Origin: Rhizobium alarense
GTDB taxonomy: Bacteria > Pseudomonadota > Alphaproteobacteria > Rhizobiales > Rhizobiaceae
Length of the DNA stretch: 64,000 nt
Assembly: GCF_021555155.1 (NCBI RefSeq)
Contig: NZ_JAKGBU010000014.1
Span: forward strand, 1 to 64,000
Direction: 5' to 3'
The position numbers and the translations under genes are program-made. A model generated the notes under the pieces. That model saw only the letters and a list, made by a program, of their open reading frames with translations, was not told where the DNA came from and ran no database searches. Positions 11,589-30,956 of this stretch are shown piece after piece. The first letter of the stretch is position 1, and each line of letters begins with the position of its first letter.

Positions 11589-12311
11589 ATGACGGTCACG
11601 TTGAACTGTGACATGGGGGAAAGCTTTGGCCTTTATCGGCTTGGTGACGACGCCGGGATGATGCCGCTGATCGACGTCGCGAACGTCGCTTGCGGTTTCC
11701 ATGCCTCCGATCCCGATCACATGCGCACCACCGTTCGGCGGGCGAAGAAGCATGGCGTCAAGGTCGGAGCACATCCCTCGCTCCCCGATCTCCAGGGTTT
11801 CGGCCGGCGAGAGATGAAGATGAGCCGCGACGAGGTCGCCAATTCGGTCATCTATCAGGTCGGCGCATTGCTCGGCTTCCTCATGGCGGAAGGCATGCAG
11901 CTCCATCACATCAAGCCGCACGGCAGCCTGTACGGCATGGCCGCCCGGCAGGAAGAGGTCGCGCATGCGATCTGTGATGCCGCCGAAATCTTCGGCGTGC
12001 CGTTGTTCGGCATGACCGGCACGATGCACGAAAAGATCTACCAGCAGCGGGGCGTCGCCTTCATTCCGGAATTCTATGCGGACCTCGCCTACGCGCCGGG
12101 CGGCTCGCTCATCGTCACGCGCGAGCATGAGGCGATGGACCCCGGCTTGATGGCCGAGCGCTGCGTCCGCGCCCTTCAGGACAAGAAGGGTACGGCAATC
12201 GACGGCAGTTTGTTCCCGGTCGGATGCGAAACGATCTGCGTGCATTCCGACACTCCGAACGCCATCGATATTGCCAAGGCCGTCCGGAGCGCGATCGCGC
12301 CCTGGCATTGA
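11589..12311 (+). CDS. pxpA: PxpA-like (LamB/YcsF) subunit, first copy
   Basis: A 240-residue LamB/YcsF protein. The start at 11589 is chosen because AGGGG lies upstream and the family N-terminus begins there (TLNCDMGESFG). Other family blocks are NVACGFHASDP, GAHPSLPD, HIKPHGSLYGMA and EFYADLAYAPGGSL. In the bacterial 5-oxoprolinase PxpABC, PxpA is the hydrolytic subunit acting with PxpB and PxpC in an ATP-dependent lactam opening. Here it heads an operon that also encodes biotin carboxylase and biotin carrier, so the substrate may be another lactam or cyclic amide. A paralogue lies at 22307 and a broken third copy at 54434. Confidence 0.9.
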   Translation: MTVTLNCDMGESFGLYRLGDDAGMMPLIDVANVACGFHASDPDHMRTTVRRAKKHGVKVGAHPSLPDLQGFGRREMKMSRDEVANSVIYQVGALLGFLMAEGMQLHHIKPHGSLYGMAARQEEVAHAICDAAEIFGVPLFGMTGTMHEKIYQQRGVAFIPEFYADLAYAPGGSLIVTREHEAMDPGLMAERCVRALQDKKGTAIDGSLFPVGCETICVHSDTPNAIDIAKAVRSAIAPWH

Positions 12312-12382
12312 CATCTTCGACCGCCCGAGCGGCGGTTCCATTGCCTGCATCACCTCGCATCGTCGGATTCGGAGATCTCGTC

Positions 12383-12616
12383 ATGACACAGATTCTTTCC
12401 CCCCTTCCCGGGACCTTCTATCGCAGCGCGGCACCCGGTCAGCCTCCGCTGAAAGCTGACGGCGACGATGTCGCCATCGGCGACGTGATCGGTCTCGTCG
12501 AAGTGATGAAGTCCTTCCACGAGATAAAGTCGGAAATTGCCGGTGCGGGCATCTCCTTCCTGGTCGACAACGAGGATCCGGTCATGGCCGGAGCACCGCT
12601 GGCGGAACTCGGCTGA
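12383..12616 (+). CDS. Short biotin carboxyl carrier protein
   Basis: A 77-residue stand-alone biotinyl domain, much shorter than AccB (about 150 residues) because the N-terminal extension is absent. The lysine to be biotinylated lies in VEVMKSFHEI, which has Ser after MK instead of the usual Met (AMKM). The two-fold lipoyl/biotinyl pattern is visible, from GDVIGLVE to VMAGAPLAEL. The stop overlaps the biotin carboxylase ATG (TGATG), indicating a stoichiometric partner. It would shuttle a carboxyl group from the biotin carboxylase to the PxpB/PxpC-type carboxyltransferase encoded next. Confidence 0.88.
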   Translation: MTQILSPLPGTFYRSAAPGQPPLKADGDDVAIGDVIGLVEVMKSFHEIKSEIAGAGISFLVDNEDPVMAGAPLAELG

Positions 12617-13980
12617 TGTTCAAGAAGCTGCTGGTTGCCAATCGCGGCGAGATTGCGGTGCGCGTCATCCGCGCGGCACAGGACCTCGGCATAAGGACAG
12701 TCGCTGTCTATTCCACCGCCGATGCCGATGCACTGCATGTCCAGCTCGCCGACGACGCCGTCAACATCGGCCCGCCGGCTGCGAAGAAGTCCTATCTGAA
12801 CATCGAAGCCTTGCTCGCCGCCGCCCACGACACCGGTTGCGACAGCGTTCATCCCGGCTACGGCTTCCTCGCCGAAAATGCGGAATTTTCGGACGCCGTG
12901 ACGGCCGCGGGTCTCGTCTTCGTCGGCCCCTCCGGCAATGCGATCCGCCTGATGGGCGACAAGGTTTCGGCGCGCGCAGCCGCCGCTGCCGCCGGCGTTC
13001 CCGTCGTTCCGGGATCCGCCGGACGGGTCGAAAGCATCGAGGCGGCGCGCGAGGTGCTGCAGCAGACCGACTTTCCGGTGATGATCAAGGCAGCTGCCGG
13101 CGGTGGCGGGCGCGGCATCCGCATCGCCAATTCGCTTGCCGAATTCGAGCAGGCATACCCGCAGGCACAGGCCGAAGCGCTTGCCGCCTTTGCCGACGGC
13201 GGCCTCTACATGGAAAAGGTCATCGGCCGTGCCCGCCATATCGAGGTGCAGGTTCTGGCCGACGGGACGAATGCCGTTCATTGCTACGAGCGCGAATGCT
13301 CGCTGCAGCGCCGGCGCCAGAAGGTCTGGGAGGAAGCGCCCTCGCGCGCCCTGTCGGATACGTTGCGCGACGAACTCTGCGCGTCGGCGGTGGCGCTTGC
13401 AAAGGCCGTCGGCTACTCCGGTGCCGGAACGGTGGAATATCTCTACGACGACGCGGCCGACCGGTTCTACTTCATCGAGATGAACACCCGCATCCAGGTG
13501 GAACATCCGGTGACGGAAGCGATTACCGGCATCGACCTCGTGGCGGAAATGCTGCGCATTGCCGGCGGGGAACCGCTGCGGCTTGCCCAGGGCGACATCG
13601 CGGTCAAGGGCCACGCCATCGAAGTGCGGCTCAACGCCGAGGACCCGGCCAGGGACTTCGCACCTTTCCCCGGCAAGATCGGCGACCTTCGCATTCCGGG
13701 CGGCCCCGGCGTCCGCTTCGATTCCATGATCTACGATGGCTACCAGGTGCCGCCCTTCTACGATTCCCTTCTGGCGAAGCTCATCGTGCATGGCGAGACG
13801 CGGGAGGCGGCAATCGTCCGGCTGGCGCGGGCGCTGCGCGAACTCGACATCGCCGGGATGAAAACCACCAAGCCGCTCTTTCTCGCGCTTGCAGCCGATC
13901 CTTCGGTGCAGGCGGGAGACGTGCACACCCGCTGGCTGGAAGGCTGGCTTACCGAAAACGCAGCGGCGCTCGCCGGCTGA
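12616..13980 (+). CDS. Biotin carboxylase subunit
   Basis: A 454-residue protein of AccC length. FKKLLVANRGEIAVRVIRAA marks the N-terminal domain, GGGGRGIRIA the ATP-grasp glycine-rich loop, and EMNTRIQVEHPVTE the catalytic segment. The C-terminal domain carries GHAIEVRLNAEDP. It uses ATP and bicarbonate to carboxylate biotin on the 77-residue carrier. The context (PxpA before it, PxpB/PxpC after it) argues against fatty-acid synthesis and for a dedicated carboxylase, as in urea carboxylase, where a biotin carboxylase works with a PxpB/PxpC-like carboxyltransferase. Confidence 0.93.
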   Translation: MFKKLLVANRGEIAVRVIRAAQDLGIRTVAVYSTADADALHVQLADDAVNIGPPAAKKSYLNIEALLAAAHDTGCDSVHPGYGFLAENAEFSDAVTAAGLVFVGPSGNAIRLMGDKVSARAAAAAAGVPVVPGSAGRVESIEAAREVLQQTDFPVMIKAAAGGGGRGIRIANSLAEFEQAYPQAQAEALAAFADGGLYMEKVIGRARHIEVQVLADGTNAVHCYERECSLQRRRQKVWEEAPSRALSDTLRDELCASAVALAKAVGYSGAGTVEYLYDDAADRFYFIEMNTRIQVEHPVTEAITGIDLVAEMLRIAGGEPLRLAQGDIAVKGHAIEVRLNAEDPARDFAPFPGKIGDLRIPGGPGVRFDSMIYDGYQVPPFYDSLLAKLIVHGETREAAIVRLARALRELDIAGMKTTKPLFLALAADPSVQAGDVHTRWLEGWLTENAAALAG

Positions 13981-13992
13981 GAAGGGGAACCG

Positions 13993-14868
13993 ATGTCGAT
14001 ACGCTTCAACTTCGGCGGTGACGAACACATCTTCGGCGAAGTGTCCGAGGAAATGTCTCTCGCCTCATTCTTCACCGGCCTTTCGATGATCAATGCGGTG
14101 CGGCAAGCCGCCATCCGCGGTGTCACCGAAACCTGCCCGGCCAATGCCAGCTTCCAGATCCGGTTCGACCCCGACGTCATCGCGCCCCGGGACCTGCTCA
14201 AGGAACTGGCCTCGATGGAGGAAGCGGCGTCGAAGTCCGACGCATCGCTGAAAACCCGCATCATCGAGCTTCCCGTCTTTTTCCAGGATCCATGGACGCA
14301 CGAGACCTGCATGCGCTTCCGCGAGCGCCACCAGGACCCGAGCACGACGGATCTCGGATATTCGGCGCGGATCAACGGTTACGACACGATTGAGGAATTC
14401 ATCGCCGCCTATTCCGGCCAGCCCTGGTTCGTTTCGATGGTCGGCTTCGTCGCCGGTCTGCCGTGGCTCTACCAGATGGTGGAGCGCAAGAAGCAGATCG
14501 AGGCTCCGAAGTACCTGCGTCCCCGCACGGACACGCCGAAGCTCACGGTCGGCCATGGCGGCTGCTTTGCGGCGATCTATTCGGTGCGTGGCGCCGGGGG
14601 CTACCAGATGTACGGCGTCACTCCTGCTCCCATCTACGACCCGGCGCGCAAGGTCCGCTACCTGACGGACGAGATGTGCCTCTTCAAGCCGGGCGACATT
14701 GTCAAGTTCAAGGCGATCAGCCGCGACGAATACGACGCGACGCTCGAGGAGATCGACGCCAACCGCTGGCAGCCGACGGTTCGCGACTGCACCTTCAGCC
14801 TCACCGATTTCAACCGCGACATTTACGGCACCAATGCCCAACTGATGGAGCTTCTCGATGGCCGTTAA
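13993..14868 (+). CDS. pxpB: PxpB-like (KipI / allophanate hydrolase subunit 1) carboxyltransferase subunit
   Basis: A 291-residue member of the KipI/AHS1 family, longer than typical PxpB (about 220-250) because of extra sequence around 80-130. The conserved core includes FVAGLPWLYQM, YLRPRTDTPKLTV and YSVRGAGGYQMYG, matching the family's GF.PG...Y and P..G.P...G.W...G blocks. GAGGGGAACCG precedes the ATG. In urea carboxylase the equivalent domain forms half of the carboxyltransferase that moves CO2 from biotin to the substrate; in PxpABC the homologue helps phosphorylate and open 5-oxoproline. It overlaps the pxpC gene by eleven bases. Confidence 0.88.
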   Translation: MSIRFNFGGDEHIFGEVSEEMSLASFFTGLSMINAVRQAAIRGVTETCPANASFQIRFDPDVIAPRDLLKELASMEEAASKSDASLKTRIIELPVFFQDPWTHETCMRFRERHQDPSTTDLGYSARINGYDTIEEFIAAYSGQPWFVSMVGFVAGLPWLYQMVERKKQIEAPKYLRPRTDTPKLTVGHGGCFAAIYSVRGAGGYQMYGVTPAPIYDPARKVRYLTDEMCLFKPGDIVKFKAISRDEYDATLEEIDANRWQPTVRDCTFSLTDFNRDIYGTNAQLMELLDGR

Positions 14869-15829
14869 GGTAATTACTCCCGGCCTTGCCACTTCGGTCC
14901 AGGATCTCGGCCGACCCGGCTGCTATCATGTCGGCATTCCCGAGGGTGGCGGTATGGACCGGTTCGCCACCCGCATCGCCAACCTTCTCGTCGGCAACGA
15001 CCCCGGAGCCGCCGTGCTCGAGGCCACCTTCATGGGTCCTGAGCTCGAGTTCACCGCACCGGCGGTCATCGCCGTCACCGGTGGCGAGCTGCCGCCCAAG
15101 GTCAACGGCGAGGAGCGGCCGACCTGGGAAAGCTTCGCGGTCAACGCAGGCGACCGCCTCTCCTTCGGCTACCTGAAGTCTGGCGCGCGGGCTTATATCG
15201 CGATTTCCGGCGGCATCGACGTCCCGGTCGTGCTGGGATCGCGCTCGACCTATGTTCTGGGCGCCCTCGGCGGTTTCGAGGGACGCACGCTGAAGACTGG
15301 CGACGAACTGCCGATCGGGGCCGGCATAGGCAAGGCCGGGCGGTCTCTGCCTCCCGGACTTCGCGGAAACGGCGCAGCACCTTCGGAACTGAGAATGCTC
15401 CCGGGCATCTACTGGCACCGCATCACGGAAACTGCGGGCAAGCGCTTCTTCGAGGAAACCTGGAAGGTAGCCCCCGAGGCCGACCGCATCGGCTATCGCT
15501 TCCGTGGTGGCACGCCGCTGGAATTCATGCCGCGCGAGCAGCCGTTCGGCGCCGGCTCCGATCCGTCCAACATCGTCGATGCCTGTTATCCGTACGGCTC
15601 TGTGCAGGTGCCGAGCGGCACGGAGCCGATCGTTCTCCACCGCGACGCGGTGTCCGGCGGCGGCTACATGATGCTCGGTGTGGTCATCTCGGCCGACATG
15701 GACCGCATCGCCCAAATGCAGCCGCATACGCCCGCCCGCTTCGTGCCGGTCAGCCTCGAGGATGCCCTCGTCGCGCGCGCCGACCGCCGGGCCGCCCTTG
15801 CCAGGGCAGAAGAATACCTGACCGCCTGA
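14858..15829 (+). CDS. pxpC: PxpC-like (KipA / allophanate hydrolase subunit 2) biotin-dependent carboxyltransferase subunit
   Basis: A 323-residue AHS2-family protein. The family opening is clear (KVITPGLATSVQDLGRPG, with GIPEGGGMDRFATRIAN), followed by FTAPAVIAVTGGELPPKVNG, AYIAISGGIDVPVVLGSRST and, near the end, GGGYMMLGVVISADMDRIAQ. With PxpB it forms the carboxyltransferase-like heterodimer. It closes the enzymatic part of the operon. The 257 bases that follow before the transporter genes hold no recognised gene, and one transcript probably continues into them. Confidence 0.92.
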   Translation: MAVKVITPGLATSVQDLGRPGCYHVGIPEGGGMDRFATRIANLLVGNDPGAAVLEATFMGPELEFTAPAVIAVTGGELPPKVNGEERPTWESFAVNAGDRLSFGYLKSGARAYIAISGGIDVPVVLGSRSTYVLGALGGFEGRTLKTGDELPIGAGIGKAGRSLPPGLRGNGAAPSELRMLPGIYWHRITETAGKRFFEETWKVAPEADRIGYRFRGGTPLEFMPREQPFGAGSDPSNIVDACYPYGSVQVPSGTEPIVLHRDAVSGGGYMMLGVVISADMDRIAQMQPHTPARFVPVSLEDALVARADRRAALARAEEYLTA

Positions 15830-16086
15830 GGCGGGCGGGGCAGGTCTCCGGGAGAGGAACCGGAGCAGGGAGGGGTTCGGTCGGCCAAAGCCGGCCCTTC
15901 GCCGCGCCAGGGAACAAGATCCGGCGCGCGCAACGACAAGACGAGACCGTTAAACGGCGTGAATTTGGCATCCGAGCGGTCCGAAGAGATCGCCGGAACC
16001 GACAGGGGAACATCGCGATATCCACAGGCCGGAACACGGCCGGATTCGCCATGCCCTTTCCATCGGCAACACAAGGAACAGGGGAC

Positions 16087-16839
16087 ATGGGTCATCTCAG
16101 CGCGGAAAACGTCTCCGTCGCCTTCGCAGGGCTAAAGGCGCTGTCGTCGGTCACGCTCGACATCACCCCGGGCCATATCAGCGGGCTGATCGGCCCGAAC
16201 GGTGCGGGCAAGACGACGCTCGTCAACGTACTGACCGGCTTTCAGGCGGCAACCGAAGGCGCCGTCAAGCTCGACGGCACGCCGCTCGGCGGCCTGAAGC
16301 CGCATCAGGTTCGCCGCCGCGGTATCGCCCGGACCTTCCAGGGCGGCCGCCTGTTCCGCGACCTGGCGGTCATCGACAATCTCGAAGTCACCGGCGTCGG
16401 GCTCGGCATGAGCCGGCGCGCCGCCGTCGCGGAAGCCGAAGCCATGCTGGAATGGATCGGTATCAGTCCGCTCGGCGCGCGCATCGCCGGCACCCTACCG
16501 TACACCGACGAGCGCCGTGTCGCGATCGGTCGCGCGCTGATGGGGCGGCCCGCCTACATTCTCCTCGACGAGCCCGCCGCCGGCATGAGCAGCCACGAAG
16601 CGGCCGATCTTTCCGCGCTGGTACGGCGCATCGCCCGCGACCTCGGCTGCGGCGTACTGATCATCGAACACAACGTCGGCCTCGTTCTGGGCCTCTGCGA
16701 CCATATTGTGGTGCTCGACTCGGGCGCCGTGATCGAGGAGGGAACGCCCGCTGCAATTCGCGGCAGCGAAAGGGTGCGGCACGCCTATATGGGCACCGCC
16801 GCCGAAGCCGGCCTGCCGGTCGTGGAGGCCCTGCAATGA
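16087..16839 (+). CDS. Branched-chain amino acid-type ABC transporter ATP-binding protein (LivG-like)
   Basis: A 250-residue ATPase from the ATG at 16087 (ACAGGGGAC upstream); an ORF extension to 16051 has no support. Walker A is GPNGAGKTT, Walker B YILLDEPAAGMS, and the C-terminal region IIEHNVGLVLGLCDHIVVLD is typical of LivG. The ABC signature is atypical: LPYTDERRVAIGRAL replaces LSYGQQR, a variation known among LivG proteins. It pairs with the LivF-like ATPase that overlaps its stop by four bases and energises uptake through the permeases downstream. Confidence 0.92.
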   Translation: MGHLSAENVSVAFAGLKALSSVTLDITPGHISGLIGPNGAGKTTLVNVLTGFQAATEGAVKLDGTPLGGLKPHQVRRRGIARTFQGGRLFRDLAVIDNLEVTGVGLGMSRRAAVAEAEAMLEWIGISPLGARIAGTLPYTDERRVAIGRALMGRPAYILLDEPAAGMSSHEAADLSALVRRIARDLGCGVLIIEHNVGLVLGLCDHIVVLDSGAVIEEGTPAAIRGSERVRHAYMGTAAEAGLPVVEALQ

Positions 16840-17570
16840 GCATTCTCGCGGTCTCCGACATCGCTGTCCGCTACGGCCGGCTCACTGCCGTCAGGGGCGC
16901 CTCCTTCTCGATGCAGGAAGGAGAAATTCTGTTCATCACCGGCCCGAACGGCGCCGGCAAGTCGTCGTTGATGCGGGCGATCGCAGGCGTCACGCCACCG
17001 GCGGCCGGACGCATCGACTTCACCGGCCAGGAGACCACCGGCCGAGCGCCGGAAGACATTGCCCGTCTCGGCTTCTCTATGGTCCCCGAGGGGCGCGATG
17101 TCTTCGGTTCGCTGACCATCGAGGAAAACCTGCTCGTCGGTACCGGGATGCACGCCCGGGAGCGTGGCTGGCGGACCCGCGCAGCCAGCGAGCTCGAAGC
17201 CGTCTATGACACCTTTCCGATCCTCAAGGAGCGTCGCAACGGCCAGGCCGGCCTCCTCTCCGGCGGCCAGCAGCAGATGCTCGTCATCGCTCGGGCATTG
17301 ATGACCAATCCACGCCTGATCGCCATAGACGAGCCGTCTCTCGGGCTGGCGCCCAACATCACCGACCAGGTCTACGAGCGACTGATCGATCTCCAGACCC
17401 AGCGCCGGCTGACCCTTCTCATCGTCGAGCAGAGTTCCACCCGAGCCGTCATGGTCGGCGGACGCATGATTCTGATGCGCGGGGGCGAGATCGTGCTGGA
17501 CGGCGACGCGCGCACGCTTGGCAACAGCGAAGCGATGCAGGCCGCCTACTTCGGTTACGAGGACCATTGA
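16836..17570 (+). CDS. Branched-chain amino acid-type ABC transporter ATP-binding protein (LivF-like)
   Basis: A 244-residue second ATPase of the importer. Walker A is GPNGAGKSS, the signature LLSGGQQQMLVIARAL and Walker B LIAIDEPSLGLAP; GFSMVPEGRDVFGSLTIEENL is the typical LivF block. The ATG overlaps the previous stop (ATGA) and the permease ATG follows one base after its own stop, so the five transport genes are one unit. It would form a heterodimer with the LivG-like protein. Confidence 0.93.
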   Translation: MSILAVSDIAVRYGRLTAVRGASFSMQEGEILFITGPNGAGKSSLMRAIAGVTPPAAGRIDFTGQETTGRAPEDIARLGFSMVPEGRDVFGSLTIEENLLVGTGMHARERGWRTRAASELEAVYDTFPILKERRNGQAGLLSGGQQQMLVIARALMTNPRLIAIDEPSLGLAPNITDQVYERLIDLQTQRRLTLLIVEQSSTRAVMVGGRMILMRGGEIVLDGDARTLGNSEAMQAAYFGYEDH

Positions 17571-17571
17571 C

Positions 17572-18477
17572 ATGCTTCAGATCGTGTTCGACTCGCTGTC
17601 CCTCGGTTCACTCTACGCACTCGGCGCCCTCGGCATCGCGCTGATCTTCGGCGTCATGCGGCTTGTGAACTTCGCCCATGGGGACGTCATCGCATTCTGC
17701 ATCTTCGCCCTCCTGTGGCCGTCGACAGATGCAATGGCGATCGTTTTCGCCGGTCAGCTTCCCTGGTATCTGCTGGTGCCCCTTGTCCTCGCCGTCGGTG
17801 CAGGCCTTTCGGTCCTGTGCGAGATCGCCGTCTTCCGTCGCTTCCGTCGCGCCAGTCCGGCGACGATGATGATCGCCTCCTTCGCGCTCGGTTTCGTCAT
17901 CCGCTATTTCCTGCTGATGCTCTTCACCAGCCGACCGAAATCGATCTCGCTCCTGCCGATGCTGTCGCAGCCGGTGGAAATCTTCGGAGCGCGGCTCCCC
18001 CTGCTCCAGCTGATCACGATCATCGCAACCGTACTGATCCTGGTCGGGCTGTCGCTCTTCCTGCGCCGGACGCGGTTTGGACTGGAAATGCGGGCGGCGG
18101 CTGAAAACTTCTCGATGGCGCGCATGCTCGGCGTCAGGGCAAACCGAGTGATCATGGGCGCCTTTGCCCTTTCGGGAGCCCTGGCCGGGGCGATCGCGCT
18201 TATCTTCGGCAGCCAGACCGGCACGGCAGATATCCAGATGGGTGCCTCGATCATGCTGATGGCCTTCATCGCAACCGTGATCGGCGGCCTCGGCAGCCTC
18301 GGCGGCGCAGTGCTTGCAGGTTTCCTGCTCGGAGCCGCCTCCGTCGTCATGCAGGTCATGCTGCCGGTGGATGCGCGTCCGTTCCGCGACGCCTTCGTCT
18401 ACGGCGCCGTCATCCTCGTTCTCCTCTTCCGTCCCCAGGGGCTGATCGCCGCACGCGGCACCCGGGAAAGGGTCTGA
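17572..18477 (+). CDS. Branched-chain amino acid-type ABC permease (LivH-like)
   Basis: A 301-residue inner-membrane permease. The LivH hallmark at the N-terminus is present: SLGSLYALGALGIALIFGVM followed by VNFAHGD. About eight hydrophobic segments are visible, and the EAA-like loop MRAAAENFSMARMLGVRANR lies near residue 175. Length is normal for the family. It forms the translocation pore with the LivM-like protein encoded four bases downstream. Confidence 0.92.
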   Translation: MLQIVFDSLSLGSLYALGALGIALIFGVMRLVNFAHGDVIAFCIFALLWPSTDAMAIVFAGQLPWYLLVPLVLAVGAGLSVLCEIAVFRRFRRASPATMMIASFALGFVIRYFLLMLFTSRPKSISLLPMLSQPVEIFGARLPLLQLITIIATVLILVGLSLFLRRTRFGLEMRAAAENFSMARMLGVRANRVIMGAFALSGALAGAIALIFGSQTGTADIQMGASIMLMAFIATVIGGLGSLGGAVLAGFLLGAASVVMQVMLPVDARPFRDAFVYGAVILVLLFRPQGLIAARGTRERV

Positions 18478-18481
18478 TCCC

Positions 18482-19567: not shown

Positions 19568-19608
19568 CCGGCGGAGAGGAAACCGTCCGGCATAAAAAGG
19601 AGACGTCA

Positions 19609-22275: not shown

Positions 22276-22306
22276 GTTGTTCTCACAGGCTGGAGATAAG
22301 GGAAGG

Positions 22307-23047
22307 TCACGCCGCATGGTCTTGACCGTCAGAATGGCTGTCGATGACCTTCCGCATGAGGACGGCTACGTCACGGGCATTGGGCGGATCGGAATGAATG
22401 CAGACGGTCCCGAATGAGACAGGGCGGATGCTGCCGTCCGTCGTTTCCAGTTCGCCCGAGGTGAGTGCACGACGCATCCGCCTTTCGGCAACGGACAGAT
22501 CGATCGCACCGTGCACGCGGGGGATCACGAGGCTTCCGTCCGGGGCATAGGTGAGGTCGGGAAAGAACTCGCCGACGAACGGTACATCGAGTTCCCCCGC
22601 CGCGGTTTCATGGAAGGTGCCGGCAAGCCCGAACAGCGGAACTGCGAACGGCTTGACCGCTGCTGCGATCGCCGCGGCTGTCGCCCGATCGCGCGCCGCC
22701 ATGCCGTAGATGATCCCGTGCGGCTTGACGTGCGAGAGCGTGCCACCCTCGGCCTCCAGAATGCTGCACAGCGCTCCGATCTGGTAGAGGAACGCCGCCG
22801 TCAGCTCTTCCGGCTGCAGCTTCATCTCGCGGCGGCCGAAACCTTCCCGGTCCGGCAGCGAAGGATGCGCACCGACCTTTGTGCCATGCTGCAGGGCAAG
22901 GCGCACAGTCTTCAGCATCGTCCAGGGATCGGAGGCATGGAAGCCACAGGCAATGTTGGAGAGGTGCACGTAGGGCATGATCGCAGCGTCGTCTCCGAAG
23001 CGCCAGTTTCCGTAGCTCTCGCCCATGTCGCAATTCAACGTGACCAT
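22307..23047 (-). CDS. PxpA-like (LamB/YcsF) subunit, second copy
   Basis: A 246-residue LamB/YcsF protein starting MVTLNCDMGESYGNWRFGDD. Blocks shared with the copy at 11589 include NIACGFHASDP, KVGAHPSLPD, GFGRREMKL, HVKPHGIIYGMA and FPDLTYAPDGSL, and the two are plainly paralogues of the same subgroup. No PxpB or PxpC gene lies beside it, so it either shares the subunits from the facing operon or has another role. It lies between the molybdenum hydroxylase large subunit and the aminotransferase, 53 bases from the former. Confidence 0.88.
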   Translation of the reverse strand: MVTLNCDMGESYGNWRFGDDAAIMPYVHLSNIACGFHASDPWTMLKTVRLALQHGTKVGAHPSLPDREGFGRREMKLQPEELTAAFLYQIGALCSILEAEGGTLSHVKPHGIIYGMAARDRATAAAIAAAVKPFAVPLFGLAGTFHETAAGELDVPFVGEFFPDLTYAPDGSLVIPRVHGAIDLSVAERRMRRALTSGELETTDGSIRPVSFGTVCIHSDPPNARDVAVLMRKVIDSHSDGQDHAA

Positions 23048-23100: not shown

Positions 23101-25449
23101 TCAGCCGAGGGTGTTGGCCGTCCAGTCCGCAGCGATATGGGCATGAGCCGGCGCGGGCTCGCGGTCGTTCAGCAGCCGCAGCACGCGTGGCGGCGTCAGC
23201 GGCAGCCGGGAAACGGACTTGCCGATGGCGCGTGCAACCGCACAGCCGATTGCCGAACCGACAGCAAGGATCGGAACTTCGCCAGCGCCCTTGGCGCCGA
23301 AAGGACCCATGGACGGCGCCCCCTCGTAGAGATCCGCGACGACGGGAATGACATCCTGGGCCAACGGCACGCGGTATGTTTCAAACCCGTCCTGGGCGAT
23401 GCGGCCATCATTGGTGATCGTCACCTCCTCGTGCAGCGCATAGCCCAGACCCTGGACCACGCCGCCCTGGATCTGGCCCATGACGGCCCGCCGATTGAGG
23501 GCACGGCCGACATCCTGCACGACCCGGTAGGCCAGCACCTCGACATGCCCGGTGTCGGGATCGACTGCCACTTCGGCCTCGTGGACGACGAAGACCGGGA
23601 TGTCGAGCGCATCGATGAAATGGCCCATCGCGCACCCTGCCATGGCCGGGGTGTTCCTCGCGGTAAAGCTGCCGGTGCCGCTGATCGGCCCTGTCGTCGC
23701 CTGCGCATGCGTCACGACCGTCGGGATGGCGACGCTCGAGCCCGGCCGCCCCGCAATTTCAACCCGCCCCTCGCACAGCACCAGATCCTCAGGAGGTGTC
23801 TGCAGCATCTCGCCTGCCGTGCGCAGGAGCTTCTCGCGCACTTCGGCCGATGCGGCGATGCTTGCGGCACCGATCGAGACGGTGGTCCGGCCTCCGCCCA
23901 CGCCAACGTCCAGGCCGGCGGCATCCGTATCGGCTTCGCGCACGATAACCTGATCCGGGTGCAGCCCGAGCTGGCCCGCCACGATCTGCGGCAGGGACTG
24001 CATCATCGTGCCGGAGCCGATCTCGACACCGGACGTCACAAGCGTGGCACTGCCGTCGGCGTTCAGGTTGACCGTGGCCGCGGACGGGCCGACGAAGATG
24101 AACCAGGTGCCGATCGCCGTGGCGCGACCGTAGAGACGACCGTCCGCCTTGTCCTCCGCCGTTCCCGTCTTCTCCCGCAGCACTTCCATCCGCTCCAGCA
24201 TGGGACGCAGGACGTCGCCTTCGAACACCTGGCCCGTCGGGCCGAGATCGCCGTCCCCGAGCACGTTGCGCTTGCGGAATTCCATCGGATCCACGCCGAT
24301 CGCCGCGCAGATCTCATCGGTGTGCCGCTCCAGCGCGAAACTGTTGTAGACGCCGTTGCAGGCGCGGAATGCGCCGTTCGGCGGGGTATTGGTATAGACG
24401 GCACGGCTGACGAGCCGTACAGCACCCAGCCGGTAGTTGCCGCCGAGCGTATGCGACGTCATGGTGGTCAGGAAAACCTGCTCGCCGCCATAGGCCCCGC
24501 AATCCATCAGCACGACCGCCTCGCGCCCGACGATATCGCCATCGGCCGTCACGGCCGAGCGGATGGCGATATCGGCATTCTCGCGGCAGAGGCAGGTCGC
24601 CATCTCCTCCTGGCGCGTGTTTTCGAGCATGACGCTGCGGCCGGTGATGCGAGCCAGAAGTGCGGTGATCGGCTCGATCGAGGCGTCGAACTTCAGCCCG
24701 AAACCGCCGCCGACCGGCGGCACCGTGACCCGCACGCGCCCGGGCGGCAGCTGCATCACGCGGCCGGTGACGTTGCGCACCGTCCAGGGCACCTGCGTCG
24801 AAGTCTGGATATGGGCGCGCCCGTCTTCCCAGCTGCCGATGGCCACGCGCGGCTCGAAGGGAACATGGCTCTGCCGACCGACGACGAAGCTGCTTTCGAC
24901 GATCGTGACATCGGCGCGGGCAAACGCGGCGTCGACGTCGCCGCGCACCGATTTCGCTTCCCATGCGATGTTGCCTGAACGCGCGCCGCCTTCGGTCAGC
25001 ACGTCATATTTGCGCCAATCCTCGTGCAACAACCGGGCGTCGGGGGCAAGCGCCTCAGCCATCGTGAACAGGGGTTCGAGCGGCTCGACCTCCAGCACGA
25101 TGGCGGCAAGGGCGGCACGTGCTTCCGCCTCGCTTTCGGCGGCGATCGCGGCGATCGGCTCACCGTGATAGCGGATGGTGTCGACGGCGAAGATCGGGTG
25201 GTCGGCGATGCCGATGCCGTAATTGCCCGGCGCATCCGCCGCGGTCGCCACCGCCAGCACGCCCGCGCACTGGAAGGCGGCCGACACGTCAAGCCTGACG
25301 ATACGCCCGGCCGGCACCGTCGAGCGCAACAGGACGGCATGCAGCATGTCCGGACGTGCCCGGTCGTTGGTGTATTTCGTCCGCCCGCGCAGCTTGTCGC
25401 GTGCGTCGCGGCGCGGCAGGTCCATAACGGTCGTCGAGAGGTCAGTCAT
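23101..25449 (-). CDS. Molybdenum hydroxylase large subunit (xanthine dehydrogenase/CoxL family)
   Basis: About 782 residues from the ATG at 25449, which overlaps the 2Fe-2S subunit stop by eight bases. Family features in order: RDARDKLRGRTKYTNDRARP, VGGGFGLKFDASIEP, NGAFRACNGVYNSFALERH around the cofactor, and GAKGAGEVPILAVGS with the catalytic Glu (KGAGE). The AYRXSFR loop of CO dehydrogenase is not seen, so it is a hydroxylase of organic substrates. It inserts water-derived oxygen next to a ring nitrogen or into an aldehyde, using Mo-pterin-cytosine dinucleotide. Operon partners supply the iron-sulfur and FAD subunits. No XdhC-type maturation factor is seen nearby. Confidence 0.92.
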   Translation of the reverse strand: MTDLSTTVMDLPRRDARDKLRGRTKYTNDRARPDMLHAVLLRSTVPAGRIVRLDVSAAFQCAGVLAVATAADAPGNYGIGIADHPIFAVDTIRYHGEPIAAIAAESEAEARAALAAIVLEVEPLEPLFTMAEALAPDARLLHEDWRKYDVLTEGGARSGNIAWEAKSVRGDVDAAFARADVTIVESSFVVGRQSHVPFEPRVAIGSWEDGRAHIQTSTQVPWTVRNVTGRVMQLPPGRVRVTVPPVGGGFGLKFDASIEPITALLARITGRSVMLENTRQEEMATCLCRENADIAIRSAVTADGDIVGREAVVLMDCGAYGGEQVFLTTMTSHTLGGNYRLGAVRLVSRAVYTNTPPNGAFRACNGVYNSFALERHTDEICAAIGVDPMEFRKRNVLGDGDLGPTGQVFEGDVLRPMLERMEVLREKTGTAEDKADGRLYGRATAIGTWFIFVGPSAATVNLNADGSATLVTSGVEIGSGTMMQSLPQIVAGQLGLHPDQVIVREADTDAAGLDVGVGGGRTTVSIGAASIAASAEVREKLLRTAGEMLQTPPEDLVLCEGRVEIAGRPGSSVAIPTVVTHAQATTGPISGTGSFTARNTPAMAGCAMGHFIDALDIPVFVVHEAEVAVDPDTGHVEVLAYRVVQDVGRALNRRAVMGQIQGGVVQGLGYALHEEVTITNDGRIAQDGFETYRVPLAQDVIPVVADLYEGAPSMGPFGAKGAGEVPILAVGSAIGCAVARAIGKSVSRLPLTPPRVLRLLNDREPAPAHAHIAADWTANTLG

Positions 25450-25924
25450 GAACATGTTCCCTGTTCTGCCGGCCGAGGACATCCATCACCGCATCGACGA
25501 TCCGCTCATAGCCCGTGCACCGACAGATATTGCCGGCCATCGCCGCCTTCACCTCAGCCCGGCCGGCAGCGGGGTTGTCGCGCAAGAAGGGCGAAAGGCT
25601 CATGACCACGCCGGGAAAACACATGCCGCACTGCACCACGTCCGCAGCCTCGAACGCGGCCTGCAGCAGATGAAGCGGCCCCTCGCCCGGCGACAAGGCC
25701 TCGACGGTTGTCACCGTCGCACCGTCGAGCAACCCCACGGGGCGAAGACACGACATCACCGCCGCGCCGTCGACATCCACGGTACAGGCGCCGCAGAACC
25801 CCTCGCGGCAGACTGCCTTGGTGCCGGTCAGATACCGCTCCCGGCGCAGCACATCGACCAGTGGCGTCATCGGATCGCCGCTGAAGCGGCTGACCGATCC
25901 ATTGATGTGAAGCTTGACTGTCAT
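25442..25924 (-). CDS. Molybdenum hydroxylase 2Fe-2S subunit (CoxS-like)
   Basis: A 160-residue small subunit. The N-terminal plant-type ferredoxin domain carries CREGFCGACTVDVDG followed by SCLRP; the C-terminal domain carries QCGMCFPG and NICRCTGYERI for the second cluster. All eight Cys ligands appear to be present, with QCGMC replacing the common QCGYC. It passes electrons from the Mo site to the FAD subunit. The gene overlaps both neighbours, by four bases at its start and eight at its stop, so the trimer is made from one message. Confidence 0.93.
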   Translation of the reverse strand: MTVKLHINGSVSRFSGDPMTPLVDVLRRERYLTGTKAVCREGFCGACTVDVDGAAVMSCLRPVGLLDGATVTTVEALSPGEGPLHLLQAAFEAADVVQCGMCFPGVVMSLSPFLRDNPAAGRAEVKAAMAGNICRCTGYERIVDAVMDVLGRQNREHVHD

Positions 25925-26775
25925 CGGATAACCTCCTTGGACAGGAGGGCCTCCATACTGCGACGCACAAGCGTCGGCAGAACCTGCCGGCGATACCAGC
26001 CGTCCGCCTCTATGCCGTCGCGCCCCCGGAAATCATTGCACGCGGCAGCCAGGGCCGCCGCCCGTTCGGCGCCGGCCGGACGGCCTCCGGGTTCCGCCGC
26101 AAACGCATTCTCGAGCGCGTCCCAACGCCGCGCCACGTCCTCGACCGAACCGACCGCGACGCGCAGACGGCCTTCCGTCGTGAGCACCATCGACACGATC
26201 GCGACCGGATAATCCCCGGCACGGCGCAGCGGCAGCCGTGCATGGGCGCTGGCTGCCAGATCGCGGCTAAGGATCACACGGATAAGTATTGTATCGGTGA
26301 GAAGAACCCTGCGGCCCGCGAGGAAAGCTGCCATCGGTATGAACATCGGGCCATCGGACGCCGCCAGTTCGACGGTAGCCTCCATAGCCAGAAGCACCGG
26401 AAGCAGGTCGGCTGCGGCGAAATCCTGCGTGCAGAGATTGCCGCCCACAGTCGCCACCCGGCGGATGGCCGGGTTGGCGGCACCGACTGCGGCCGCGACG
26501 ACGGCCTCGAAGCCCACCACGCCGGCAAACGCCCGTCCAAGCGCCTCATGCGTGACCGCCGCGCCGATTGTCATGTGGCCCGCCTTGATGTCGATTGCCG
26601 CCAGACCGGGAAGTGCATGCAGCGAAACCAGAGTCTTCGGGAGCACCTGCCCCCGTCGTGGGTCCCGCATCAGCCATGTGCCGCCGGCCAGGATCGCAGC
26701 GCCCTGCCGCCGGGCGGAAAGCGCTTCCTCGATGCTGCCGGCGACGGTCAAAGACCGCTCCAAGCTATCGGACAT
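25921..26775 (-). CDS. Molybdenum hydroxylase FAD-binding subunit (CoxM-like)
   Basis: A 284-residue medium subunit of the FAD PCMH type. ILAGGTWLMRDPRRG and VATVGGNLCTQDFAAADLLP correspond to the two FAD-binding motifs of CoxM, with CTQDF in place of the usual NASPA. The C-terminal CoxM cap domain is present (AVGSVEDVARRWDALENAF). It transfers electrons onward to an unidentified acceptor. It is first in the five-gene minus-strand operon, and its upstream region copies the promoter of the pxpA-biotin operon. Confidence 0.9.
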   Translation of the reverse strand: MSDSLERSLTVAGSIEEALSARRQGAAILAGGTWLMRDPRRGQVLPKTLVSLHALPGLAAIDIKAGHMTIGAAVTHEALGRAFAGVVGFEAVVAAAVGAANPAIRRVATVGGNLCTQDFAAADLLPVLLAMEATVELAASDGPMFIPMAAFLAGRRVLLTDTILIRVILSRDLAASAHARLPLRRAGDYPVAIVSMVLTTEGRLRVAVGSVEDVARRWDALENAFAAEPGGRPAGAERAAALAAACNDFRGRDGIEADGWYRRQVLPTLVRRSMEALLSKEVIR

Positions 26776-26957: not shown

Positions 26958-28925
26958 TCAGACCCAGCAGGCGACACTGCGTTTCTCAAAGCTCTCGCGA
27001 AACTGCTCGGTCGTCTTCTTCAGAACATCGCCGTTCTCCCAGTCGAGGATGACGGCGAAGCGGCGCACCGCGTCGAGCGCATTGATCTCGCCGGCCTTGT
27101 AGCGGACGGAAACCGCGTCCGGATCCATGCGCGCCCACTCCTTGCGCTTGCTGCGGATCTCCGCCCGGCATGCCTCCGTCGCGGCGCTGTCGATCTCGTA
27201 CCGGCAAAGATCGCGGTCAATTTCCTTCAGGACGACACCATAGTCGATCGCCGCCCGCTCGATCGACACGTAGTCGTCGATCACATCGTCCATCACCTTC
27301 AGCGGGTCGCGCTCCAGCGGATCTCCGAAGCCCCCGCCGCCGGCCGTCGGCCGGGCGAACTCATCGCCGGTGAAAACCGGATAGTCGGAGAAGACAGAGC
27401 CGAGCCAGGTCTTAGCCTCCTCGCCCGAACGGCGGATCGTCAGACCGTGCGGCATGGAAGGCAGCCCGCCCTCGATGCCCCAGACGACGGCCCGCTCGCG
27501 GTCGCAGATATAGGACATGACGGCGTTTTCGGCCGACAGCAGCACGGACGTCTTCTGCACGCCGACGCCGCCGCGCCATTTGCCGGGTCCAGCCGAATCC
27601 TGCTTGATCTGGAATTCCGTGGTGCGGGTCGGGTTGACGCGCTCATTGCCCTCGTTCGGCTGCGACATCAGGCCGGTTCCGAAGCAGGCGGTGGTTACGT
27701 CGGCGCCGTCCTTGCCATTTCGGCCGCCCCAGCCGCCCGGCAACCATTCGTAGAACATGAAGATCGGCTTTTCCGGCTTGCGGGCATCGCGGCCACCGGC
27801 CAGCAGATATTCCAGATTGAAAGCGCAGGCGATCGCCCGTTCCGGCATGATCTGGGACCACATCTCGAAGATCGCGTTCATGATCTTCTCGAAAGGCATG
27901 AGGAAGCCGGTGACGGCCACCGGCCATTCCGCACTGACGACGCTGTTCTTCGGCGCCGTCACCTCGATCATCCGGTAGAAGCCGCTATTCAGGGGCAGAT
28001 CCGGGAAAAAGGTCTTCATGCCGGCAACCACGGCCGAGAAGGTCGCGCCGGGTGCCGAATTGTACATCGACGCAATGGTCGAATGGCTGCCGGTGAAGTC
28101 GTAATGGATCGTATCGCCCTTGATGGTCATCCTGATGCGGATCGGGATCATCCCTTCGCCCGCGCCGAGGTCGCGGTCGATGTAGTCCACCGTCTCCCAG
28201 GTGCCGTCGGGCAATTCCGCAAGCCGCTTGCGCACGGCGCGCTCGACGTAGTCCTGCACCTCCTCCATGCCGCGCGTGACCTGGTGGCGGCCGTATTTCT
28301 TCACGAGCCGCAGCAGTTCGCGCTCGGCCGCAAGGGTCGCCTGCGCCTGCGAATGGATATCGCCGATGATCGACGCCGGGTCGCGGGTGTTGGCGGCGAT
28401 CAGATTGGCGATGTCCGCGCAGAACGTTCCGGCGCGAAACAGCCTGACGGGAGTGATCCGCATTCCCTCGCGAAACATGTCGCGCGCCGTGACGTCGAAG
28501 GACCCGGGCACCGAGCCGCCGAGATCCGACCAGTGGCCGTTCGACTGCGAAAAGCCGATCAGCGTGTCCTCGTCGAAGATCGGCCGCACCAGCCGGACAT
28601 CGCTGAAATGCGTACCGCCGGCATAGGGATCATTGATCGCATAGACGTCGCCGGGCGCCATGTCGCCTTCGAACGCGCGGATTACTTCCTTGCAGGTGTT
28701 GTGCAAGGTGCCGACATGCACGGCGATATCGTAATTGCCCTGGGCGACCGAATTGCCGTCGGCATCATGCAACGCATTGGAAAAATCGCGGTTGTAGATG
28801 ACGAAGGAGTAGCAGGTGCGCAGCATCTGCTCGGCCATCTGGTCGACGGTCGTGATGAAGGAGTTCTTCAAGACCTCGAACGTGACCGGATCGAGGCTCT
28901 TTTCCGCTTCGGTGAAGTTGGTCAT
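26958..28925 (-). CDS. Hydantoinase/oxoprolinase B-family subunit
   Basis: A 655-residue HyuB-family protein. DPVTFEVLKNSFITTVDQMA is the family N-terminus, with SNALHDADGNSVAQGNYD, INDPYAGGTHFSDVRLVRPIF and SNGHWSDLGGSVPGSFD following in the usual order. The C-terminus is extended by about 100 residues beyond the PTAGGGGFGDPLERDP block, as in acetone-carboxylase-like relatives. With HyuA it would hydrolyse or carboxylate a cyclic amide or ketone at ATP cost (N-methylhydantoinase, 5-oxoprolinase and acetone carboxylase are the known types). It lies three bases downstream of the A-subunit gene. Confidence 0.9.
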   Translation of the reverse strand: MTNFTEAEKSLDPVTFEVLKNSFITTVDQMAEQMLRTCYSFVIYNRDFSNALHDADGNSVAQGNYDIAVHVGTLHNTCKEVIRAFEGDMAPGDVYAINDPYAGGTHFSDVRLVRPIFDEDTLIGFSQSNGHWSDLGGSVPGSFDVTARDMFREGMRITPVRLFRAGTFCADIANLIAANTRDPASIIGDIHSQAQATLAAERELLRLVKKYGRHQVTRGMEEVQDYVERAVRKRLAELPDGTWETVDYIDRDLGAGEGMIPIRIRMTIKGDTIHYDFTGSHSTIASMYNSAPGATFSAVVAGMKTFFPDLPLNSGFYRMIEVTAPKNSVVSAEWPVAVTGFLMPFEKIMNAIFEMWSQIMPERAIACAFNLEYLLAGGRDARKPEKPIFMFYEWLPGGWGGRNGKDGADVTTACFGTGLMSQPNEGNERVNPTRTTEFQIKQDSAGPGKWRGGVGVQKTSVLLSAENAVMSYICDRERAVVWGIEGGLPSMPHGLTIRRSGEEAKTWLGSVFSDYPVFTGDEFARPTAGGGGFGDPLERDPLKVMDDVIDDYVSIERAAIDYGVVLKEIDRDLCRYEIDSAATEACRAEIRSKRKEWARMDPDAVSVRYKAGEINALDAVRRFAVILDWENGDVLKKTTEQFRESFEKRSVACWV

Positions 28926-28928
28926 GTC

Positions 28929-30956
28929 TCAGCCTTTCGTCGCAATGAGGATGTTCAGGAATGCATCCACCCTGGCGCTCATGCCGGGCGGGACGACCGT
29001 GGTGGAATCGAACTGCTCAACGATCGCGGGGCCAGAGAAGAAAGCGCCCGCCTCGAGCACCTCGCGCTGGTAGATCGCAGTGTCATGGGACGCACCGTCG
29101 AACCAGACCGGCCGCCGGCCGACCGGTTCCGGCACATGCTCTTGCATCTCGTATTTCGGTAGATCGGCCTTCGGCACGATGCCGACAGCCTTGATGGCGA
29201 TGCGGAAGATCGAGACCGGCGCCTCGTCGCGGCGATAGCTGAACTCGCGTTCGTGCTCGCCATGAAAGGCTTCAATCAGCGCGCAGATGCTCTCGATTTT
29301 GGCCGGCGCGTTGACGGCAAGCGAGCGCCACTGTCCCTGGTACATCATCTCGACGGTGCGCTGCATGGCCATGTCCTCGGGCGACACACCTTCATGCGAA
29401 AGCCGCTCGGCGGCCTGGACCTCCATGCGCCGAAAGGCCGCCTCCATCTCGCCCGGAGCCACCGTCGAGGCGTCGGTCATGAAGCTTTCGGAAAAATCGT
29501 GCTGCACATCGACGAGCAGGCAGCCGAGCGCCGATGTAACACCCGGATTGGGGGGCACGATCACGGTGGGGATGGAGAGCTCCCTGGCAACGGCTGCGCC
29601 GTGGAGCGCACCGGCGCCGCCGAAGGCGACCAGTGCGAAATCGCGCGGATCATAGCCCCGGCTGATCGACAGGAGGCGCACGGCATTGGCCATGTTGGCG
29701 TTGGCGACGGCGACGATTGCCTCCGCAGCCTTGTGAAGTTCCATGCCGAAAACATCGGCGACCGTCTCGTTGACGGCTTTCGCCGCAAGCTGCGGATCAA
29801 GGGTAATCTTGCCGCCGGCAAGGCTCGTTCCCAACCGACCGAGCACGACGTTGGCATCGGTGTTCGTCGCCGTCGCATTGCCGTTGCGGTAGCAGGCCGG
29901 CCCCGGAAAGGCACCCGCCGATTGCGGCCCGTTGCGCAGCGAGCCGCCCTCGTCCTGCCAGGCGAGCGACCCGCCGCCGGCACCGATCGTCAGCACCTCG
30001 ATCGAGGGAAAGCGGATCGGATAGCCGTATTCGATGTACCAGTCCTTGGTGATGCGCGGCTCCCCGTTCCAGGCCAGCGAGACATCCGTGCTCGTCCCGC
30101 CCATATCGAAGCCGATGGAATTGGGAAAACCGCAGAGATTGCCGATGAACCGGCTGGCGATCGCACCGGCGGCGATCCCCGAACCGGCAAGACGGGCGGA
30201 AAATTCCCGAACGCTTGCCGGCGTCATCACCCCGCCGCCGGAGTGCAGCAGCAGCAGGTCGCTTCGATAGCCGCCGGCGGCCAGCTTCTCGCCGAGGCGC
30301 GATACGTAGTCCACCACGACCGGCGCGCAGACGGCGTTCGCCATGGTCGTGGAAAAGCGCTCATGTTCGAAAATCTCCGGCATCACCTCCGAGGAGATCG
30401 AGACCGGCAGGTCGGGCATGATCTCCCGGAGGATCGCGCGCATGCGTCGTTCATTCGCGCCGTTGACATAAGCATTCATGAAGCAAACGGCCACGGACTT
30501 GACGTCCCGCTTCTTCAGCACCGCTGCCACGCGGCGCGCATCCTCCTCGTTCAGCGCCTCGAGCACGACGCCCTCGGCATCCACACGCTCGCGGACCGTC
30601 AACCGGTCGCGGCGGGGAATATAGGGCTTGGCCACATCCTTGTAGGTGTCCCAGAGATCCTCCTTGTTGGCGCGGCGGATCTCGACTACGTCCCGGAAGC
30701 CCTCGGTGCAGACCATCGCCGTGCGCGGCAGGCGCCGGGTGATCAGCGCGTTCGTCGCAACCGTCGTGCCGTGCGAGAACATCGTCACCTCGGAGAGGTC
30801 GATGCGTGCCTGCTCTACGCCGTTGAGGATCGCGCGCATGGGATCGTCCGGTGTCGAGGCGGTCTTCTCGATCCGGATCGCACCGGTTTCCTCGTCCATG
30901 ATGCAGATATCGGTGAAGGTCCCCCCGACATCCACGGCAACTCTCGTCTTGGTCAT
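28929..30956 (-). CDS. Hydantoinase/oxoprolinase A-family subunit
   Basis: A 675-residue HyuA-family protein of the ASKHA fold. RVAVDVGGTFTDICIMDE is the first phosphate loop, TMFSHGTTVATNALI follows, and IGFDMGGTSTDVSL is the second ATP-binding motif. Length fits N-methylhydantoinase/oxoprolinase A and acetone carboxylase beta-like subunits. It binds ATP and activates the substrate carbonyl, working with the B subunit. Its substrate here is unknown; the island suggests a lactam or imide. About 207 bases without a gene separate its start from the AraC gene and should contain its promoter. Confidence 0.9.
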   Translation of the reverse strand: MTKTRVAVDVGGTFTDICIMDEETGAIRIEKTASTPDDPMRAILNGVEQARIDLSEVTMFSHGTTVATNALITRRLPRTAMVCTEGFRDVVEIRRANKEDLWDTYKDVAKPYIPRRDRLTVRERVDAEGVVLEALNEEDARRVAAVLKKRDVKSVAVCFMNAYVNGANERRMRAILREIMPDLPVSISSEVMPEIFEHERFSTTMANAVCAPVVVDYVSRLGEKLAAGGYRSDLLLLHSGGGVMTPASVREFSARLAGSGIAAGAIASRFIGNLCGFPNSIGFDMGGTSTDVSLAWNGEPRITKDWYIEYGYPIRFPSIEVLTIGAGGGSLAWQDEGGSLRNGPQSAGAFPGPACYRNGNATATNTDANVVLGRLGTSLAGGKITLDPQLAAKAVNETVADVFGMELHKAAEAIVAVANANMANAVRLLSISRGYDPRDFALVAFGGAGALHGAAVARELSIPTVIVPPNPGVTSALGCLLVDVQHDFSESFMTDASTVAPGEMEAAFRRMEVQAAERLSHEGVSPEDMAMQRTVEMMYQGQWRSLAVNAPAKIESICALIEAFHGEHEREFSYRRDEAPVSIFRIAIKAVGIVPKADLPKYEMQEHVPEPVGRRPVWFDGASHDTAIYQREVLEAGAFFSGPAIVEQFDSTTVVPPGMSARVDAFLNILIATKG

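Follow-up and report, generated by a model that had tools for sequence, protein, structure and literature searches.

This study concerns a window of 64,000 nucleotides from Rhizobium alarense (the whole stretch that was analysed, positions 1 to 64,000 of contig NZ_JAKGBU010000014.1; gene coordinates below are positions in the window) and a set of five genes within it, here called the core, which encode a PxpA-type hydrolase, a biotin carrier (BCCP), a biotin carboxylase (BC) and the PxpB-like and PxpC-like subunits of a carboxyltransferase (CTB and CTC, respectively). The region consists of two converging gene sets, one on the plus strand from 11589, which begins with the core, and one on the minus strand from 30956 downward. 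Every gene named in a preliminary description of this DNA, made from the sequence alone, was recovered in place from open reading frames (ORFs), translations and Pfam and NCBIfam models. The core and the regulator beside it are as follows.

10546..11451, minus strand: LysR-type regulator, divergent from the core (Pfam HTH_1 and LysR_substrate)
11589..12311, plus strand: PxpA1, the first LamB/YcsF hydrolase and proposed lactam hydrolase (Pfam LamB_YcsF 6.5e-89; ATG start at 11589)
12383..12616, plus strand: BCCP, a 77-aa biotin carrier with the motif VEVMKSF (NF005457 103.3 bits, cut-off 87)
12616..13980, plus strand: BC, biotin carboxylase (NF009471 745 bits, cut-off 686)
13993..14868, plus strand: CTB, PxpB-like carboxyltransferase subunit of urea-carboxylase type, with Lys173 (CT_C_D 1.2e-34)
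14858..15829, plus strand: CTC, PxpC-like carboxyltransferase subunit (Pfam CT_A_B 3.4e-88; TIGR00724 259.9 bits, cut-off 230.2)

CTB and CTC overlap, BCCP and BC share one base and the gap between BC and CTB is 12 nt; from these overlaps and short gaps we infer that the core genes are co-transcribed. Many relatives likewise have a LysR gene next to the core.

Comparison of gene neighbourhoods indicates that the five-gene core is a module and more than a chance assembly. Relatives of CTB (E 1e-20) are present in 45 of 199 genomes of the family to which the window genome belongs, and the full core was found in 43 of the 44 stretches inspected (from 40 of those 45 genomes and from four plasmid records), the remaining one running into the end of its contig. 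When named genomes were scanned, at least 585 CTB relatives came to light, and in the best 80 of these the core was complete at 76 loci and truncated by contig ends at the other four, which supports the supposition of the preliminary description that the biotin parts belong with the PxpA/PxpB/PxpC-like unit. In a few loci (L051, L065, L227) PxpA is divergent rather than in line. The core is also found in further families, and a survey of 398 genomes of the phylum gave 60 CTB matches at E 1e-15, of which 16 were of the core type (at least 56% identity) and one stood at 34%, the others being for the most part urea carboxylases fused into frames of some 1200 aa, at 24-30% identity. For comparison with ordinary pxpB loci, 144 core stretches were dereplicated to 84 and 40 control stretches to 37, and neighbours were scored within 7.5 kb; the controls were not random, the first 20 having been taken approximately by rank of hidden Markov model score and the second 20 chosen manually within the same class or nearer. 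BC lay within this distance in 82 of the 84 core stretches as against 3 of the 37 controls, and BCCP (best match) in 79 as against 1, with a closer look raising the number of carriers to 80. Of the 84 loci, L167 lacks both BC and BCCP, as does L074, which is cut by a contig end; two more contig-cut loci, L164 and L229, lack BCCP. Before dereplication, in which L169 was dropped as a near-copy of another row, BC was missing in three of the 144 stretches (L074, L167, L169). A pattern scan of viral contigs found no CTB relatives there. On some plasmids of Rhizobiaceae and Thioclava (L034, L035, L089, L090, L092, L093, L095) the core adjoins a GntR-ABC-SDR-SDR-polysaccharide-deacetylase block.

CTB scores 101.7 bits with the urea carboxylase model and 63.1 bits with TIGR00370, NCBI's own equivalog model for PxpB, which has a cut-off of 145.55, and by that model it is not a PxpB, the name that it had first been given. 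CTC passes the broad TIGR00724 model and falls below the PxpC equivalog NF045499 (216.9 bits, cut-off 500). Residues 4-270 of CTB align with the urea carboxylase of K. lactis (KlUC), and Lys173 aligns with Lys1605 of that enzyme, which is described in the cited passage as the likely essential general base, the K1605A change having severely inhibited the enzyme (PMC5770610). Lysine occupies this position in 83 of the 84 dereplicated core loci, L203 being unscored on account of a broken frame, whereas arginine occupies it in all 37 dereplicated control PxpBs and likewise in every one of the 30 PxpB rows of another alignment, 19 of which are control genes. When 174 rows of the carboxyltransferase (CT) domain were aligned, repeated genes included, 130 had Lys and 44 had Arg; Lys is also found at the key site in L028, L133 and L144. 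Lysine characterises the core type together with a further, related type (L158/L141, L172, L173) and urea carboxylase, whereas arginine characterises ordinary PxpB. A tree of 65 CT rows likewise separated the core CTBs, the related type and urea carboxylase from the Arg-types with support of 100/99, and within it the core-type CTBs formed a single clade (100/100). The best fold match of a predicted CTB model (mean pLDDT 78.5, weak around residues 179-203) was urea carboxylase 3va7, with a Z of 19.8 over 256 residues as compared with 12.8-14.9 over 176-193 residues for PxpB chains. By these comparisons CTB groups with urea carboxylase and not with the PxpB of 5-oxoprolinase, and is a carboxyltransferase of the biotin type; Lys173, the division of the tree and the model scores here bear out the kinship with urea carboxylase on which the preliminary description had relied.

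BC and its carrier look functional, as the key residues of both are intact. The motif [ILV]EVMK is present in all 80 carriers found among the 84 core loci, and 14 active-site positions of BC, chosen after E. coli AccC and taken to be catalytic, are conserved in all of the rows that cover them (80-81), except for one Asp at Glu227. Seven BC loci were found in the window genome at E 1e-60, and since one of these is a separate accB-accC-like pair on C145, the pair within the core is an extra one. The core is further linked to bioY, a gene for biotin import, which occurs near it in 15 of the 84 stretches (one of these matches being weak, at 33% identity) and in 0 of the 37 controls (Fisher p 0.005, kinship ignored). 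Layout was inspected in 18 loci chosen because relatives of bioY, gabT or gabD had already been found there. In 13 of the 16 that bear bioY, this gene is directly 3' of CTC on the same strand, with a gap of at most 116 nt or an overlap, the overlap in L253 being uneven; bioY is 109 nt before hydroxylase-type genes in L063 and L070, and 1.6 kb after CTC in L164. The BioY of L220 matches Pfam at 4.9e-37. BioR boxes, sought with a consensus motif, were absent from the window and were seen, at any place in the stretch, in one of the 84 core stretches and one of the 37 controls. In L254 (11882-20581) the core is followed by BioY and a gene resembling that of a molybdenum subunit (26% identity), after which come BioY again and a further BC.

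Downstream of the core, after a gap of about 220 nt, a Liv-type importer occupies 16051-20802 on the plus strand, and the minus-strand set converges upon it.

16051..16839, plus strand: LivG-type ABC ATPase (ORF and translation; matched in relatives)
16836..17570, plus strand: LivF-type ABC ATPase (Pfam ABC_tran; start from translation)
17572..18477, plus strand: LivH-type permease (Pfam BPD_transp_2; start from translation)
18482..19567, plus strand: LivM-type permease (Pfam BPD_transp_2)
19609..20802, plus strand: Liv-type substrate-binding protein (Pfam Peripla_BP_6; start from translation)
20893..22317, minus strand: class III omega-aminotransferase of the PRK06105 family (NF004767 726 bits, cut-off 517)
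22307..23047, minus strand: PxpA2, a second PxpA-type hydrolase (Pfam LamB_YcsF 2.1e-81)
23101..25482, minus strand: molybdenum hydroxylase large subunit with the motif GAKGAGE (Pfam Ald_Xan_dh_C, MoCoBD_1 and MoCoBD_2)
25442..25924, minus strand: 2Fe-2S subunit (Pfam Fer2 and Fer2_2)
25921..26775, minus strand: FAD subunit (Pfam FAD_binding_5)
26958..28925, minus strand: HyuB, hydantoinase B / oxoprolinase (Pfam 1.2e-156; best NCBIfam model CapB, 282 bits, cut-off 1000)
28929..30956, minus strand: HyuA, hydantoinase A / oxoprolinase (Pfam; CapA 522 bits, cut-off 1000)
31164..32228, minus strand: AraC-type regulator (Pfam HTH_18)

The hydroxylase is of the xanthine-oxidase family, with its molybdenum, 2Fe-2S and FAD subunits all present, and GAKGAGE aligns as a motif of the GxKGxGE type, the glutamate of which we take to be the catalytic residue of the molybdenum subunit. 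The best solved relatives of this subunit are 4-hydroxybenzoyl-CoA reductase and 6-hydroxypseudooxynicotine dehydrogenase; an identity as CO dehydrogenase was dropped on this account, the subunit not being CO-dehydrogenase-like in particular, as the label coxL-like in the preliminary description would have it. An orthologue of the molybdenum subunit (E 1e-200; at least 67% identity) occurs in 20 of the 199 family genomes, and all 20 are among the 45 that carry the core (hypergeometric p 2e-15, kinship ignored), which ties the hydroxylase to the core. At that threshold the subunit was never seen in a family genome without the core, and to that extent the outcome that the preliminary description had named as contrary to its reading, the two operons occurring independently with unrelated partners, was not borne out. 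The two lie within 22.1 kb of one another in 17 of the 20 genomes, in several layouts, and on different contigs in G027, G126 and G132. In L175-L178 (Rhizobium skierniewicense and Agrobacterium relatives) the hydroxylase set is on the opposite side of the core, and PxpA2 was not found within the fetched stretches. As the core often occurs without the hydroxylase, it is the hydroxylase that would feed the core and not the reverse.

The solved chains nearest to HyuA are N-methylhydantoinase 7hk5 and 6yra, the latter titled 5-oxoprolinase in the PDB and presumably a caprolactamase. HyuA relatives beside the core fall into two kinds, one with about 70-90% identity and the other with about 35%, and the AraC-HyuA-HyuB unit (26958-32228; of caprolactamase / N-methylhydantoinase type) recurs beside the core in L033, L055, L058, L251 and L252. 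No amidase-type allophanate hydrolase was present among the genes annotated at 10-33 kb of the window, the part of the genome in which it was sought. Further along, at 35268-40115, are genes for ApbE, a family-3 solute-binding protein, a cytochrome c and a YNCE-like beta-propeller, perhaps a separate cluster for alcohol oxidation.

Solved relatives of the omega-aminotransferase include 4-aminobutyrate transaminases, and in a few other loci the core is followed by gabT and gabD (L056, L060 and L220) or by gabT (L250). The order in L060 is PxpA, BCCP, BC, CTB, CTC, BioY, GabT, GabD. In L056, where BC matches in two overlapping pieces, GabT is separated from BioY by the FAD, FeS and molybdenum subunits, with every gene on the same strand, and in L220 both GabT (571.8 bits, cut-off 506.65) and GabD (713.8 bits, cut-off 646.35) pass the NCBI models. 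This is as expected if a lactam is opened to an omega-amino acid; in the preliminary description it is the aminotransferase that takes the product. The cluster of L172 combines relatives of PxpA2 (67%) and of the aminotransferase (67%) with an ABC importer, BCCP, BC and a CT of a different clade, and also holds a relative of succinate-semialdehyde dehydrogenase that is below its cut-off (566.7 bits, cut-off 646.35); relatives of the window PxpA2 and aminotransferase therefore travel with a second biotin module as well.

Taken with the gene content, these comparisons make it fairly probable that the core is a biotin-dependent enzyme system for the opening of lactams, in which carboxylation of nitrogen, hydrolysis by PxpA, transamination and oxidation would follow one another. 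The reaction, its order of steps and its substrate, as we infer them, would take urea amidolyase as a model, where BC forms carboxybiotin, the CT carboxylates a nitrogen and a hydrolase finishes the reaction, the nitrogen here being that of a ring and the hydrolase PxpA. BC would use ATP and bicarbonate to carboxylate biotin on the 77-aa carrier, and CTB-CTC, in which Lys173 would serve as general base, would pass the carboxyl group on to a lactam or similar cyclic amide, at the nitrogen of its ring. The carbonyl of an N-carboxylactam being the more reactive, this could activate the ring for hydrolysis by PxpA, and the opened N-carboxy amino acid would release CO2 and so pull the reaction. The product would be an omega-amino acid such as 4-aminobutyrate (GABA) or 5-aminovalerate, which the aminotransferase would convert to a semialdehyde, with a dicarboxylate to follow. 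GabT, GabD and the omega-aminotransferases point to gamma- or delta-lactams as the substrate. Molybdenum hydroxylases are able to oxidise cyclic imines to lactams (the chemistry of aldehyde oxidase), and the one in the window may supply the lactam by acting on a cyclic imine or N-heterocycle, while the Liv system may import the substrate. The arrangement of genes given in the preliminary description is confirmed, its biotin-type unit and hydroxylase link have gained support from comparison, and its interpretation is supported in part.

Several observations weigh against this scheme. The loci share descent, so the counts are not independent. Two genomes of one genus (L167 and L169) have PxpA-CTB-CTC with the Lys and no adjoining BC or BCCP, their AccC-like genes (51-52% identity) being only elsewhere in the genome; use of AccBC in trans is possible there. 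The hydroxylase (at least 50% identity) is present in 23 of the 80 named core stretches, which reach up to 10 kb on each side. GabT and GabD are common enzymes, in L220 a frame on the opposite strand separates bioY from gabT, and gabD was not seen among the annotated window genes, of which not every one was scanned. The PxpA of the core is almost unchanged from ordinary PxpA, with only one clear switch (Ser220 for Gly), so that its sequence offers no proof that its role has changed. Arg-type PxpBC pairs also stand beside BC or BCCP in some loci, among them two of the window genome (C120 and C137) and 3 of the 40 controls, and adjacency to BC was for this reason dropped as proof in itself of biotin use. 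According to its title, PDB entry 9yx5 is a long-chain acyl-CoA carboxylase complex of M. smegmatis with MSMEG_0435-MSMEG_0436 bound, which suggests that PxpBC proteins dock on biotin enzymes. These two proteins are PxpC/PxpB homologues and an Arg-type pair. Together with the Arg-type pairs beside BC, this makes the Lys an incomplete test for the use of biotin and blurs the line between Lys and Arg: either biotin is used by more than the core type, or adjacency does not amount to use. Of the two loci in the window genome, both with Arg at the key site, C120 (L155) has the order BCCP-BC-PxpB-PxpC-PxpA and C137 (L156) has PxpA with a fused PxpBC and a fused BC-BCCP. Both may be further ring-opening systems linked to biotin.

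Other explanations of the module must be set beside lactam opening. It could act on a cyclic imide, hydantoin or ureide; HyuAB would open one C-N bond and the biotin module and PxpA the other, the diketo ring having been formed out of an N-heterocycle by the hydroxylase. This would suit the urea-carboxylase-like CT, the presence of HyuA relatives within 7.5 kb in 26 of the 84 core stretches as against 0 of the 37 controls, and the N-methylhydantoinase that is nearest to the window HyuA among solved chains; however HyuA is absent from that distance in the other 58 core stretches, L060 and L220, which bear gabT and gabD, showed none, and a ureide-cleaving enzyme was not among the annotated window genes, so that we regard the explanation as unlikely though conceivable. 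That the module is a biotin-dependent 5-oxoprolinase, which converts 5-oxoproline to glutamate while the hydroxylase and aminotransferase serve other steps, seems quite unlikely. PxpABC elsewhere is given as 5-oxoprolinase in the cited source (PMC13274462), and PxpA1 and PxpA2 both pass the PxpA subfamily model NF003814 (cut-off 226; 276.8 bits for the PxpA subunit of the core), but the PxpB-like, PxpC-like and PxpA proteins of the window all fall under the 5-oxoprolinase equivalog cut-offs. Nor has such a route any place for the molybdenum hydroxylase or the omega-aminotransferase, and the enzymes that follow the core in a few loci are GabT and GabD rather than those of glutamate.

It might also be supposed that BC and BCCP merely boost acetyl-CoA carboxylase, or are co-regulated, while the PxpA/PxpB/PxpC-like proteins open a ring with ATP and without biotin. 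The NCBIfam names of BC and BCCP are those of acetyl-CoA carboxylase, BC and BCCP are not in place in L167 and L169, and the pxp-acc operon of S. aureus was interpreted in this way by its authors in the cited text (PMC11315280). Against this the genome has its separate accB-accC-like pair, BC and CTB are as close in the window as noted above and close or overlapping in relatives, bioY recurs by the core, and CTB, which keeps the base lysine, belongs to the urea-carboxylase type; we hold this explanation to be very unlikely.

The proposed lactam-opening system resembles several known enzymes and differs from each in some respects. With urea carboxylase and urea amidolyase (TIGR02712; K. lactis 3va7, 5i8i) it shares BC, BCCP, a CT of the same fold, the base lysine and the best structural match, but it consists of separate small proteins rather than one chain of about 1200 aa, its CTB has a clade of its own and its proposed partner hydrolase is PxpA, allophanate hydrolase not being among the genes annotated at 10-33 kb; three separate window proteins score 528.8, 101.7 and 221.7 with TIGR02712, which has a cut-off of 1303.85. 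The prokaryotic 5-oxoprolinase PxpABC likewise has PxpA, PxpB-like and PxpC-like subunits side by side. The core differs from it in the Lys for Arg in the active site of CTB, which is also longer (291 aa), in an insert around 226-233 of CTC, in a dedicated BC and BCCP, and in proteins that are under the equivalog cut-offs. One of the genes relevant to such comparisons, PA0492 of P. aeruginosa, we take to be PxpA-like. The same kinds of gene are together in P. aeruginosa PA0492-PA0496 and in a six-gene operon of S. aureus that includes pxpB, pxpC, pxpA, accB and accC (PMC11315280, PMC6249292, PMC8768829), of which the latter was read as 5-oxoprolinase and fatty acid genes (PMC11315280) and the precise function of PA0493 and PA0494 was termed unknown (PMC6249292); a biotin-dependent ring opening is not proposed in the cited text of either. 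Caprolactamase (CapAB) and OplAB, which are of the HyuAB type also present in the window, open lactams with ATP and bicarbonate according to the cited texts, where a carboxylated lactim, without biotin, is among three mechanisms considered for caprolactamase (PMC8453981, PMC11033972). These enzymes have no biotin and no PxpA and their proteins are unrelated to the core, while the window HyuAB is well under the CapAB cut-offs of 1000 (522 and 282 bits). Among the open PMC matches listed, neither a biotin-dependent lactamase nor the five-gene module as such is described in titles or the starts of abstracts, which is not proof of novelty.

It is possible, if tentatively so, that the core represents a new enzyme class, a "biotin-dependent lactam amidolyase", which is widespread in Pseudomonadota, has been hidden under the name of acetyl-CoA carboxylase and would be a further use of biotin by a urea-carboxylase-type transferase. 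On the same tentative footing PxpBC-type proteins in general may be biotin carboxyltransferases, some of which borrow the BC and BCCP of acyl-CoA carboxylases, as is hinted at by L167, L169 and 9yx5.

Gamma- and delta-lactams are very stable. In the enzymatic protocol described for OplAB in the cited text, butyrolactam yields traces only (PMC11033972). If the interpretation offered here is true, a biotin route could be useful for the monomers of nylon-4 and nylon-5 and for N-heterocycle pollutants, and would also bear on a question which the cited text of Lombard and Moreira left unresolved in 2011, that of whether other biotin carboxylases act as partners of urea-carboxylase-like transferases (PMC3199775). 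Many names such as 'acetyl-CoA carboxylase' and 'allophanate hydrolase' would be corrected, the relatives numbering at least 585 in one scan. A gene set that is widespread in bacteria, and as a rule mislabelled as fatty-acid genes, probably uses biotin to open stable lactams for consumption; this would be the logic of urea amidolyase applied to lactams, and a new kind of enzyme reaction.

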